Assembly (NCBI GenBank): GCA_018993155.1
Contig: JAGKSX010000093.1
Span: 1-40,455 of the forward strand
Length of the DNA stretch: 40,455 bases
Reading direction: 5' to 3'
Source of the DNA: Hydrogenophaga sp.
Lineage (GTDB): Bacteria > Pseudomonadota > Gammaproteobacteria > Burkholderiales > Burkholderiaceae_C
This document shows, piece after piece, positions 10,810-13,621 of this stretch (the stretch's first letter is position 1; every line of letters begins with the position of its first letter). The notes under the pieces are model-generated. The model was not told where the DNA came from. It did no database searches and worked only from the letters and a program-made list of their open reading frames with translations. The translations under genes were made by a program, and so were the position numbers.

Positions 10810-12270
10810 ATGATTTCACGCGAACCCACCCTGGCCCGTCTGGCCACCGCCCAAAGCCTGTTGCTCGAACCGTTCGGGCTGAGCCCCACGCACCTGCAGC
10901 GTGCGCTCGGCGAGATCATGTCGCACGGCGTGGACGACGCCGACCTGTATTTCCAGACCACGCGCAGCGAAGGCTGGAGCCTGGAAGAGGGCATCGTCAA
11001 GACCGGCAGCTTCAGCATCGACCAGGGCGTCGGCGTGCGCGCGGTCAGCGGTGAAAAGACGGCGTTCGCCTATTCCGACGACCTGTCCTGGGATTCGCTG
11101 ATCGACGCGGCCCACACGGTGCGCTCGATTTCGGCGCAGGGCCAGGGCCGCAAGGTGCGCGTGCCGGCGGTGAAAGTGCCCAAGTCGCGTTCGCTGTACC
11201 CGGGCCTGGACCCGATCGCCACGCTCGACAGCACCGCCAAGGTCGCGCTGCTGGAAAAGGTGGAGCGCATGGCCAAGGCCAAGGACCCGCGCGTGAAGCA
11301 GGTCATGGCCGGCCTGGCGAGCGAATACGACGTGGTGCTGGTGGCGCGCGCCGACGGCACCCTGGCGGCCGACGTGCGCCCGCTGATCCGCCTGTCGGTG
11401 ACGGTGATCGCCGAGCAGTCGGGCCGGCGCGAAGCCGGTTCGTCCGGCGGCGGCGGCCGTTTCGGCCTGGCCTATTTCGACGACGCGATGGTGCAGTCCT
11501 ACGTGGACGAGGCCGTGTCCTACGCGCTGACCAACCTCGACGCACGCCCTGCACCGGCCGGCGAGATGGTGGTGGTGCTGGGCTCGGGCTGGCCCGGCAT
11601 CCTGCTGCACGAGGCGGTGGGCCACGGGCTGGAAGGCGACTTCAACCGCAAGGGTTCCAGCGCTTTCGCCGGCCGCATCGGCCAGCGCGTGGCCGCCAAG
11701 GGCGTGACCGTGCTCGACGACGGCACGATCGCCGACCGCCGGGGCTCGCTCAACGTCGACGACGAGGGCCACACCTCGCAGCGCAATGTGCTGATCGAAG
11801 ACGGCATTCTGCGCGGCTACATCCAGGACGCGATGAACGCGCGCCTGATGGGCGTGAAGCCCACCGGCAATGGCCGTCGCGAGAGCTACGCCCACGTGCC
11901 CATGCCCCGCATGACCAACACCTACATGCTGGGAGGCGACAAGGCGCCCGAGGAAATCGTGGCCAGCATCAAGAAAGGCCTGTACGCCACCAACTTCGGC
12001 GGTGGCCAGGTCGACATCACCAGCGGCAAGTTCGTGTTCTCGGCCAGCCAGGCCTACTGGGTGGAGAACGGCCAGATCCAGTACCCGGTGAAGGGCGCCA
12101 CGCTGGTGGGCAACGGCCCGGACGCGCTGACCCGCGTGAGCATGATCGGCAACGACATGAAGCTCGACAGCGGCGTGGGCACCTGCGGCAAGGAAGGCCA
12201 GAGCGTGCCGGTGGGCGTGGGCCAGCCGACGTTGCGCATCGATGGGCTGACGGTCGGCGGCACCGCTTGA
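10810..12270 (+). CDS. tldD: metalloprotease TldD
   Basis: TldD forms a heterodimeric zinc peptidase with TldE (PmbA) that degrades unfolded peptides and processes some modified peptides such as microcin B17. The 486-residue product has the zinc motif HEAVGH (residues 267-272) within LLHEAVGHGLEGDF, and the usual C-terminal glycine-rich region with YPVKGATLVGNG and TCGKEGQSVPVGVGQPTLRI. The family's usual length is about 480. pmbA is not in the window. Its TGA lies at the edge of the aroG leader region. Confidence 0.97.
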   Translation: MISREPTLARLATAQSLLLEPFGLSPTHLQRALGEIMSHGVDDADLYFQTTRSEGWSLEEGIVKTGSFSIDQGVGVRAVSGEKTAFAYSDDLSWDSLIDAAHTVRSISAQGQGRKVRVPAVKVPKSRSLYPGLDPIATLDSTAKVALLEKVERMAKAKDPRVKQVMAGLASEYDVVLVARADGTLAADVRPLIRLSVTVIAEQSGRREAGSSGGGGRFGLAYFDDAMVQSYVDEAVSYALTNLDARPAPAGEMVVVLGSGWPGILLHEAVGHGLEGDFNRKGSSAFAGRIGQRVAAKGVTVLDDGTIADRRGSLNVDDEGHTSQRNVLIEDGILRGYIQDAMNARLMGVKPTGNGRRESYAHVPMPRMTNTYMLGGDKAPEEIVASIKKGLYATNFGGGQVDITSGKFVFSASQAYWVENGQIQYPVKGATLVGNGPDALTRVSMIGNDMKLDSGVGTCGKEGQSVPVGVGQPTLRIDGLTVGGTA

Positions 12271-12291
12271 CTCGGCGTTTTCAATTGCCTG

Positions 12292-12300
12292 TGCTACATT
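12292..12300 (+). promoter_or_regulatory. extended -10 for the aroG leader (TGCTACATT)
   Basis: TACATT preceded by TGC makes an extended -10 element. TTGACT overlaps the tldD stop 22 nt upstream of the hexamer, which is too far for an ordinary spacer. The predicted start is near 12307, only one or two bases before the leader-peptide ATG at 12309. The leader peptide would then be translated from the very 5' end of the RNA. Confidence 0.45.
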
Positions 12301-12308
12301 TCGAACCC

Positions 12309-12383
12309 ATGTCTTCGCGCTTCGCCTTTTTTGCCTTTTATTTTTGGTTCTCAGTCCCCGGCGGACGAGAGGCGAAGCTGTAA
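12309..12383 (+). CDS. aroG leader peptide (Phe/Tyr/Trp-rich attenuator peptide)
   Basis: This 24-codon open frame starts ATG TCT TCG CGC and ends CTG TAA. Residues 5-14 read FAFFAFYFWF: six Phe, one Tyr and one Trp in ten codons, far beyond chance in GC-rich DNA, where TTT and TTC runs are rare. It lies between tldD and aroG and is followed by alternative RNA stems and a terminator. This is the design of the pheA and pheST leader peptides: ribosomes stall on Phe codons when charged tRNA-Phe is scarce. It has no Shine-Dalgarno sequence, and the predicted transcript starts only one or two bases upstream. The residue bias points to sensing of phenylalanine first, with possible input from Tyr and Trp. 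Confidence 0.85.
   Translation: MSSRFAFFAFYFWFSVPGGREAKL
12319..12378 (+). promoter_or_regulatory. attenuator stem 1:2 (pause or protector hairpin)
   Basis: GCTTCGCCT at 12319-12327 is perfectly complementary to AGGCGAAGC at 12370-12378 (9 bp). The left arm covers codons just before and at the start of the Phe run, so a ribosome stalled there would cover it. The right arm lies in the last codons of the leader peptide, next to the antiterminator segment at 12358-12364. Confidence 0.7.
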
Positions 12384-12414
12384 GCGCATCACCGAATCTC
12401 GACACAACCGCCGG
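12358..12414 (+). promoter_or_regulatory. attenuator stem 2:3 (antiterminator)
   Basis: CCGGCGG at 12358-12364 pairs with CCGCCGG at 12408-12414. The same 12408-12414 arm is the left arm of the terminator, and 12358-12364 is identical to the terminator's right arm, so the two structures exclude each other. Stalling on the Phe codons leaves 12358-12364 free and favours read-through into aroG. Confidence 0.75.
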
Positions 12415-12439
12415 AGCTCCAAGCCCGGCGGTTTTTTTT
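12406..12439 (+). terminator. attenuator stem 3:4, intrinsic terminator before aroG
   Basis: A perfect CCGCCGG (12408-12414) / CCGGCGG (12425-12431) stem with a 10-nt loop, extended by two A-T pairs, is followed by eight T (12432-12439). It is a canonical intrinsic terminator lying about 50 nt before the aroG start codon and after the leader-peptide stop, so it would block aroG expression when phenylalanine is plentiful. Confidence 0.88.
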
Positions 12440-12487
12440 CGCCCCTTCGAACCGTTTTTTGATTCAACCCCACTCAGGAGCCCCGTG

Positions 12488-13621
12488 ATGACTGCCAAGA
12501 ACGCCCCCGCCAGCAGCGATGCCTGGCATGCCCGTCCTGTCGACAAAACCAGCCAGACCGACGACGAACGCATCAAGGACATCACCGTGCTGCCCCCTCC
12601 TGAACACCTGATCCGCTTCTTCCCCATCGGCGGCACGCCGGTGGAAGCGCTCATCAGCCAGACCCGCCAGCGCATTCACCGCATCCTGCATGGGCAGGAC
12701 GACCGTCTGCTGGTCGTGATCGGCCCGTGCTCCATCCACGATCCGGTCGCTGCGGTCGACTACGCGCGCCGCCTCAAGCCGCTGCGCGAGAAGTACGCCG
12801 ACACGCTGGAGATCGTGATGCGGGTCTACTTCGAGAAGCCGCGCACCACCGTGGGCTGGAAGGGCCTGATCAACGACCCCTACCTGGACGAGAGCTACCG
12901 CATCGACGAAGGCCTGCGCATCGCGCGCCAGCTGCTGATCGAGATCAACCGCCTGGGCCTGCCCGCAGGCAGCGAGTTCCTCGACGTGATCTCGCCGCAG
13001 TACATCGGCGACCTGATCGCCTGGGGCGCCATTGGCGCGCGCACCACCGAAAGCCAGGTGCACCGCGAGCTGGCCTCGGGCCTGTCGGCGCCGATCGGCT
13101 TCAAGAACGGCACCGACGGCAACATCAAGATCGCCACGGACGCGATCCAGGCCGCCTCGCGCGGCCACCACTTCCTCTCGGTGCACAAGAACGGCCAGGT
13201 GGCGATCGTGCAGACCAATGGCAACAAGGACTGCCACGTGATCCTCCGCGGTGGCAAGGCGCCCAACTACGACGCGGCCAGCGTGGCCGCTTCGGTGAAG
13301 GAACTCGAAGCCGCCAAGCTGCCGCCGCGCCTGATGGTCGACTGCAGCCACGCCAACAGCAGCAAGCAGCACGAGAAGCAGCTCGAGGTGGCGCGCGACA
13401 TCGCAGGCCAGATCGTCAGCGGCTCGCGCAGCATCTTCGGCGTGATGATCGAGAGCCACATCGAAGCCGGCGCTCAGAAGTTCACCCCGGGCAGGGACGA
13501 GGTGGGTGCGCTCAAGTACGGCCAGAGCATCACCGACGCCTGCCTGGGCTGGGGCGATTCGCTGCAGGCGCTCGAGGTCCTGTCGGCGGCGGTGCAGACC
13601 GCCCGCCACGCGCGGGGCTGA
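12488..13621 (+). CDS. aroG: 3-deoxy-7-phosphoheptulonate (DAHP) synthase, class I
   Basis: This enzyme condenses phosphoenolpyruvate and erythrose 4-phosphate, the first step of the shikimate pathway. The 377-residue product has the class I signatures GPCSIHDP (79-86), MRVYFEKPRTTVGWKG (about 114-129), GARTTESQVHRELASG, GFKNGTDGN, and MVDCSHANS with the metal-binding Cys and His. Its closeness to the E. coli AroF/G/H family is clear, but which amino acid inhibits it cannot be read from motifs; the Phe-rich leader suggests the Phe-linked isozyme. The open frame extends back to 12344 through the leader, but the ATG at 12488 has AGGAG 7 nt upstream and starts the normal protein. Confidence 0.96.
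   Translation: MTAKNAPASSDAWHARPVDKTSQTDDERIKDITVLPPPEHLIRFFPIGGTPVEALISQTRQRIHRILHGQDDRLLVVIGPCSIHDPVAAVDYARRLKPLREKYADTLEIVMRVYFEKPRTTVGWKGLINDPYLDESYRIDEGLRIARQLLIEINRLGLPAGSEFLDVISPQYIGDLIAWGAIGARTTESQVHRELASGLSAPIGFKNGTDGNIKIATDAIQAASRGHHFLSVHKNGQVAIVQTNGNKDCHVILRGGKAPNYDAASVAASVKELEAAKLPPRLMVDCSHANSSKQHEKQLEVARDIAGQIVSGSRSIFGVMIESHIEAGAQKFTPGRDEVGALKYGQSITDACLGWGDSLQALEVLSAAVQTARHARG

Follow-up and report, generated by a model that had tools for sequence, protein, structure and literature searches.

How is aroG controlled in Hydrogenophaga sp.? The question is raised by the gap between tldD and aroG in the stretch of DNA analysed here (the window; 40,455 nt of contig JAGKSX010000093.1), where the gene order is rodA, tldD, leader, aroG, with mpl farther on and on the opposite strand. 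The AroG protein has its closest named relatives in a Betaproteobacteria MAG (91%) and then in Hydrogenophaga loci (90%). An initial annotation had read the gap as a complete attenuator controlling aroG, and this reading is supported by the conservation of the leader among relatives and by compensatory changes in the paired arms. We consider a ribosome-mediated transcription attenuator of aroG to be the very probable reading, with a probability of about 0.88, and its features are collected in Table 1. Rfam release 15 at gathering scores gave no match in the window, blastn with positions 12240-12500 gave no match among plasmids, and a simple promoter and terminator scanner reported nothing between 12000 and 12700. 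The scanner has a loop limit of 8, and the terminator loop here is 10 when the inner pairs are left out.

Table 1. Features of the gap between tldD and aroG and of the gene that follows (positions in the window).
Feature	Position	Strand	Details
Extended -10 box TGTGCTACATT, predicted	12290..12300	+	Ends 8 nt before the leader ATG; without a conserved -35 box
Leader ORF, 24 codons and TAA, MSSRFAFFAFYFWFSVPGGREAKL	12309..12383	+	ATG at 12309, TAA ends at 12383; without a Shine-Dalgarno sequence
Control codons F5-A-F7-F8-A-F10-Y11-F12-W13-F14	12321..12350	+	Leader codons 5-14
9-bp stem of the initial annotation	12319..12378	+	12319-12327 with 12370-12378; in the window, strong predicted fold, not conserved
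First hairpin, more conserved candidate	12348..12371	+	TTCTC 12348-12352 with GAGAG 12367-12371; GTCC 12354-12357 with GGAC 12363-12366
Antiterminator 5' arm	12358..12370	+	CCGGCGG 12358-12364 and CGAGA 12366-12370
TCTCG, predicted partner of 12366-12370 in the antiterminator	12397..12401	+	Fold prediction only
Shared arm CCGCCGG	12408..12414	+	Pairs with 12358-12364 (antiterminator) or 12425-12431 (terminator)
Intrinsic terminator	12405..12439	+	12408-12414 with 12425-12431, inner GCT with AGC, then T8 (12432-12439)
AGGAG, Shine-Dalgarno sequence of aroG	12476..12480	+	Such a sequence precedes most aroG starts (counts in the text)
aroG, type I DAHP synthase	12488..13621	+	Residue 231 is Ser, which the Phe-regulated E. 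coli enzyme also has

The aromatic leader and its predicted start

The gap contains, as had been described, a 24-codon leader in which codons 5-14 encode six Phe, one Tyr and one Trp. A run this dense, with eight aromatic codons in ten, did not arise in any of 1000 dinucleotide shuffles of the 300 nt preceding aroG, where the maximum was 6, and the aromatic run in the window leader is beyond chance. AroG was sought in 150 genomes of the same family and matched in 149, and the upstream region was examined in 142; the seven of the 149 left out of the family count are G040, G043, G068, G074, G112, G115 and G124, and the locus L022 was dropped because its contig begins at aroG. The Phe run, whose conservation in relatives had been named as a check on the attenuator, has its counterpart in 140 of these 142 genomes by a rule of at least four aromatic residues in ten codons, which 97 of 650 shuffles also reach. 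The two misses, L220 and L223, are contig ends with 140 and 112 nt of upstream sequence, and two of the 140 leaders (L166 and L213) have only four aromatic residues. When the score is raised to at least five in ten codons, 129 of the first 130 family loci examined reach it versus 16 of 650 shuffles. Leader and terminator occur together, by the rules used, in 136 of the 140 family genomes.

The start of the leader was approached through its upstream sequence. In 148 of 194 loci, the sequence most similar to TACATT ends 6-8 nt ahead of the ATG (exact in 118), TGTG precedes the match at 81-84% per base in the 185 loci with at least four matches, and TGnTAnnnT lies 4-12 nt before the leader start in 161 of 199 loci. 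The exact sequence TGTGNTACATT occurs only once in the window. The -10 motif was derived from the same loci, so that its spacing, and not its discovery, counts as evidence; this spacing would place the transcription start on the leader ATG or no more than a few bases from it. A Shine-Dalgarno sequence, defined as any four consecutive nucleotides of AAGGAGGT located 5-20 nt before the start, was found at 1 of 199 leaders versus 145 of the 177 aroG starts for which an ATG was found, and at none of the 27 leaders in order and class loci, one of which (L267) was mis-anchored. The close extended -10 box and the near-absence of a Shine-Dalgarno sequence suggest that the leader ORF is probably leaderless. 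In many Burkholderia- and Oxalobacteraceae-type loci, a TATA-like box is found farther upstream.

Paired arms downstream of the aromatic run

Within the window, the shared arm is the exact complement of two other segments, CCGGCGG at 12358-12364 and the terminator 3' arm at 12425-12431. The 7-bp antiterminator, the 7-bp terminator with its eight T and the arm common to both are thus all in place as first reported; the antiterminator retains these 7 bp and is predicted to extend beyond them, by pairing of 12366-12370 with 12397-12401. Structures were counted in 199 of 221 loci, 22 being left out (14 without a leader and 8 without a terminator by the rules used); seven of the 199 lack the anchor, and z-scores and stem lengths of the first hairpin were obtained from the remaining 192. 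Pair counts were made on an alignment of 63 sequences, called A1, which were aligned by sequence alone. In this alignment 86.4% of the antiterminator cells (12358-12364 with 12408-12414) hold standard pairs, while versions slid along the alignment are 17-61% paired, and 96.0% of the terminator cells are paired. Double-changed cells, which are counts over cells and not independent events on a tree, number 18 in the antiterminator versus 3.7 in shuffles and 20 in the terminator versus 4.0. The mean z of the antiterminator region is -2.83, with none of the 192 loci above 0. Judged by these alignments, antiterminator and terminator covary, and the conserved pairing that had been proposed as a second check is seen as compensatory changes in both.

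Individual exchanges show how this covariation arises. Burkholderia- and Oxalobacteraceae-type loci have UA in place of CG beside the GGCGG core, eight family loci have AU in place of GC (CCGACGG/CCGTCGG), and a different GC to AU exchange is found in L222. The shared arm and the antiterminator arm are changed together in nine family loci, eight with CCGACGG/CCGTCGG and one with CCCAGCGG/CCGCTGGG; in these nine the terminator 3' arm is unchanged and pairs by G-U, so the change of the arm follows the antiterminator alone. These data bear on another explanation, according to which the hairpin is the ordinary terminator of tldD, aroG has its own later promoter and the ORF is there by chance. The tldD gene does lie upstream here and was found in the examined stretch of 161 of 206 leader loci, yet the aromatic run is also present in the 45 leader loci without tldD in the stretch (stretch lengths differ), and covariation links the antiterminator arm to the terminator arm. 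We find this explanation scarcely credible.

The same region also speaks to the role of the peptide. One could suppose that the ORF is the gene of a small hydrophobic protein that has its own function and that the terminator is incidental, and an aromatic-rich, hydrophobic and widely conserved peptide is what such a protein would look like. However, the residues after the run shift frame between loci while the GGCGG...GAGAG bases stay constant, the peptide over these bases ending in VPGGREAKL in the window, PRRMRG in L098 and SKADERQ in L148, with a stop after HGG in L178. Bases that are kept across frames indicate that the RNA pairing is conserved and not the peptide end, and a functional small protein is very unlikely.

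The attenuator reading also calls for a first stem, for which there are two candidates. The perfect 9-bp stem of the initial annotation is present in the window, where 12319-12327 (GCTTCGCCT) and 12370-12378 are fully complementary, and it dominates the predicted window fold without a ribosome, with a probability of 0.93. Its conservation in relatives did not hold, and it was rejected as the conserved first stem: 45.1% of its cells are paired versus 45.4% in shuffled columns. A hairpin at 12348-12371, the first arm of which starts at the Phe14 codon and which encloses part of the antiterminator arm, is moderately supported by the alignment as the more conserved candidate. In its outer stem, 86.3% of cells hold pairs and 11 are double-changed, versus 3.7 in shuffles. 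Three pairs are changed on both sides, but 152 of 500 shuffles reach this number; a slid control is close behind (71.1%, 9 cells), and the region has a mean z of only -0.6. In some other lineages, the first hairpin takes the form TTCC...GGAA or TTCCA...TGGAA/TGGAG. A test of its stem length gave no discrimination, since T-rich arms find purine-rich partners even by chance.

Folding calculations were used to model the switch. In the window fold, the RNA was made to 12420 and the ribosome masked 11 nt past the A-site codon; in a second treatment, the RNA upstream of the ribosome was also free, with 15 nt masked before the P site. With the A-site at F5, F7, F8, F10, Y11 or F12, the antiterminator probability was 0.99-1.00 in both treatments, so that in the model a stall on codons 5-12 frees the antiterminator. 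At W13 the probability was 0.85 with downstream RNA only and 0.34 with upstream RNA free, and at F14 it was 0.05 and 0.00, respectively; in the model, W13 is borderline and F14 is too close to act. Without a ribosome, the window antiterminator stood at 0.01. Once the whole terminator is made, the terminator wins in every folded state, and the switch therefore has to be kinetic. Kinetic switching is familiar from known attenuators.

The model was also applied to the 199 loci. With a ribosome stalled at the middle aromatic codon, the shared arm was paired upstream at a mean of 0.94; with a shuffled spacer the mean was 0.64 and 179 of 199 means were at least 0.5, so this test discriminates poorly, as the GC-rich shared arm also pairs with the shuffled spacer. 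Without a ribosome, the shared arm paired upstream at a mean of 0.63, and at 0.5 or more in 124 of 199 loci, which means that in the model the first hairpin is not enough by itself to ensure termination. With a ribosome at the stop codon, upstream pairing was 0.33 without upstream RNA and 0.67 with it, the low values resulting from the upstream RNA being left out of the fold. A ribosome that rests at the stop codon and covers the antiterminator arm was considered and is not backed by the fold: with upstream RNA free, the antiterminator still reached 0.67 in the window, and upstream pairing was at least 0.5 in 159 of the 199 loci. Among relatives with a GGCGG-type arm, the antiterminator arm lies about 9 to 38 nt from the leader stop codon, a spread unlike that of a design in which a stop-codon ribosome must cover this arm. 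As modelled, folding supports stall-driven antitermination, and termination once the ribosome is gone; shutting off the antiterminator requires both its departure and a re-formed first hairpin. The folding model generalises weakly over loci, and the attenuator claim is therefore carried by the comparative evidence.

Distribution of the element and the isoenzyme it precedes

A covariance model was built on alignment A1 and used for searches of the order and the class. The model, of which the window itself is a part, found one strong place in the own genome, before aroG; the next match there has an E-value of 0.06 and lies without aroG nearby. Of 200 genomes of the order, 58 have a match at E<=0.01 and 46 at E<=1e-5, spread over 14 of the 51 families sampled. 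All 46 matches at E<=1e-5 are directly before an aroG homologue, as established by tblastn for 30 and by coordinates for 16. Twelve weaker matches in the order (E 1.6e-4 to 0.01) and the weak matches in the class were not counted as members, and searches over more than 40 genomes used strict filters by which weak matches are lost. AroG was found in 154 of the 200 order genomes. Among 40 aroG upstream regions, 39 of them from genomes lacking a strong match and one (L284) a second copy from a matched genome, the aromatic run was at most 4 in 36, 5 in three and 6 in one; by this measure, many other genomes of the order lack the element before aroG. No aromatic leader by the rule used was found at the Polynucleobacter loci L033, L035 and L037 or the Cupriavidus loci L032 and L034. 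The aroG relatives at these five loci are 73-77% identical; the leader may have been lost there, or they may be other copies of the gene.

At the level of the class, the model matches 12 of 229 genomes at E<=0.01, and outside the order there are only two strong matches, from one family and both before aroG. A leader, a terminator and an antiterminator are present at the Xanthomonas locus L077, which suggests that the matching family outside the order is Xanthomonas-like. The same kind of leader was seen before aroG in the Xanthomonas-like loci L077, L271 and L272, and may reflect old inheritance or transfer. Short ORFs lie upstream of aroG at two loci of family f28, where ten codons contain 6 aromatic residues in L295 and 5 in L321 (MGAFCFYWHLFWND... 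and ...RWRFCFFYHVAIRY...); they are perhaps a differently built aromatic leader or a product of chance. An aromatic-rich short ORF also stands before an AroG 64% identical to that of the window at L073, on a contig labelled as an Anaerolineae MAG and possibly misbinned; the rule used found no terminator there.

The element appears to accompany one of two DAHP synthases. The genome holds a second DAHP synthase gene (L002/L230; G000:C130:1134-2189, minus strand), the product of which is 57% identical and which has no aromatic leader; it is probably a differently regulated isoenzyme. None of seven paralogous copies, that of the own genome and six of other family genomes, has the leader. Ser231 of the window AroG has a Ser as its aligned counterpart in the Phe-sensitive E. 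coli enzyme, and Gly stands there in the paralogue, a residue difference that we take to distinguish Phe from Tyr sensitivity. Gly at this residue is also found, with no leader, at the Cupriavidus loci L032 and L034. There are exceptions, namely L221 with Gly and a leader, L077 and L272 with Ala and a leader, and Ser that is not always accompanied by a leader, so that the link between residue and leader is suggestive only. In G140, L221 contains tandem DAHP synthase genes, with an aromatic leader found before the first copy only.

Proposed mode of action and comparison with known systems

The attenuator would operate as follows. Transcription would start at or a few bases from the leader ATG, and the leader would be translated without a Shine-Dalgarno sequence. 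When charged tRNA-Phe, perhaps also tRNA-Tyr or tRNA-Trp, is short, the ribosome would stall within codons 5-12 and block the first hairpin, leaving 12358-12370 free to pair with 12397-12414; with the antiterminator formed, the terminator would not arise and aroG would be transcribed. Under good supply, the ribosome would clear the codons and leave, the first hairpin would re-form and hold 12358-12364, and 12408-12414 would pair with 12425-12431, ending transcription at the T-run.

The amino acids sensed may be judged from the leader composition. The leader had been described as Phe-sensing, and its Phe codons agree with this; Phe alone is not the pattern, as most family leaders hold Phe, Tyr and Trp. 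The 140 family leaders have a mean of 4.25 Phe, 1.56 Tyr and 0.95 Trp per 10-codon run, with Phe present in every one, and the position before the last aromatic residue is W in 103, F in 22 and Y in 6. Phe is encoded by TTT 369 times and by TTC 210 times in the counted loci, and Tyr by TAC 146 times and by TAT 65 times, mixed use which indicates that the residue is kept and not the base. Among 79 named loci, not all of them Burkholderiales, 63 have leader and terminator by the rules used; Phe and Tyr occur in all 63 and Trp in 46.

Alternatively, the leader may read Phe only, with the Tyr and Trp codons as passengers, as is Tyr in the Corynebacterium glutamicum aroR leader before aroF, a Phe-Tyr-Phe leader which responds to Phe and for which Tyr availability was without effect, according to passages of PMC11802643. 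In line with this, Phe is the commonest residue, Trp is absent from L080 and from the Oxalobacteraceae-type leaders inspected, W13 lies at the limit of the stall positions that work in the folding model, and the attenuated enzyme resembles the Phe-regulated one. The single-codon Trp is nevertheless kept in 132 and Tyr in 137 of the 140 family leaders, in largely fixed places, and we place sensing of Phe alone a little short of even odds. Joint sensing is a more tentative proposal, with the odds against it: one leaderless leader would sense the supply of Phe, Tyr and Trp, any shortage would release aroG, only the Phe-type isoenzyme would be served, and the element would be an old or widespread means of controlling aroG across many families within the order and in at least one beyond it (Xanthomonas-like). 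The tri-aromatic part of this proposal is weakened by the borderline position of W13 in the folding model.

The attenuator offers a testable control circuit for shikimate entry in a large order where the E. coli TyrR model may not hold. A probable leaderless start combined with three kinds of aromatic codon makes it a test bed for how one leader weighs several amino acids. The points of most interest are the joint weighing of Phe, Tyr and Trp and how the terminator wins under good supply.

Neshat et al. reportedly described the aroR leader upstream of aroF in Corynebacterium glutamicum in 2014, and Panina, Vitreschak and Gelfand are said to have carried out comparative studies of proteobacterial attenuators. 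A Phe attenuator on a DAHP synthase gene had been called a different design by the initial annotation, in comparison with E. coli; such a design is not new, since Corynebacterium aroR-aroF and Acholeplasma uORFC-13-1 came earlier, as passages of PMC11802643 and PMC8632094 indicate. The C. glutamicum system resembles the present one in having a leader peptide before a DAHP synthase gene, where a ribosome that stalls for lack of Phe increases transcription (passages of PMC11802643 and PMC7356990). It differs in belonging to an actinobacterium and in its Phe-Tyr-Phe motif versus eight aromatic codons here, and the two are likened by design alone (PMC11802643, in the same passages). The uORFC-13-1 element, a prediction, is likewise a uORF with one or more Phe codons and a terminator, found only before DAHP synthase; it differs in coming from Acholeplasma and environmental sequences, with 24 representatives and at least one Phe codon (passages of PMC8632094). 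The same passages mention an earlier hypothesis of attenuation at E. coli aroF.

In E. coli, the DAHP synthase genes are under TyrR and TrpR, and Phe-sensing leaders with transcription attenuation, as proposed here, are those of pheA (pheL) and pheST, which in contrast control pheA and the Phe-tRNA synthetase and not a DAHP synthase (passages of PMC11802643). Predicted attenuators of tyrA operons, Bordetella parapertussis included, are tabulated in PMC1173090, the relevant passages of which do not name aroG of Burkholderiales. The main text of a study of B. cenocepacia transcription starts (PMC4603805), in which the gene may appear by number, does not contain aroG, leader peptide, attenuat or phenylalanine. 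Among the matches listed, mostly from non-subscription literature, none reports an aroG attenuator in Burkholderiales, which does not prove novelty in print. For the predicted leaderless start, the nearest parallel is trpL of Sinorhizobium meliloti, a leader ORF whose transcript starts at its ATG; it differs as a Trp leader before trpE(G) (passages of PMC7298713). By analogy with peTrpL, described in the same source, the leader peptide before aroG may have an additional role in trans. The attenuator before aroG is real and widely conserved, and the kind to which it belongs is itself well known.
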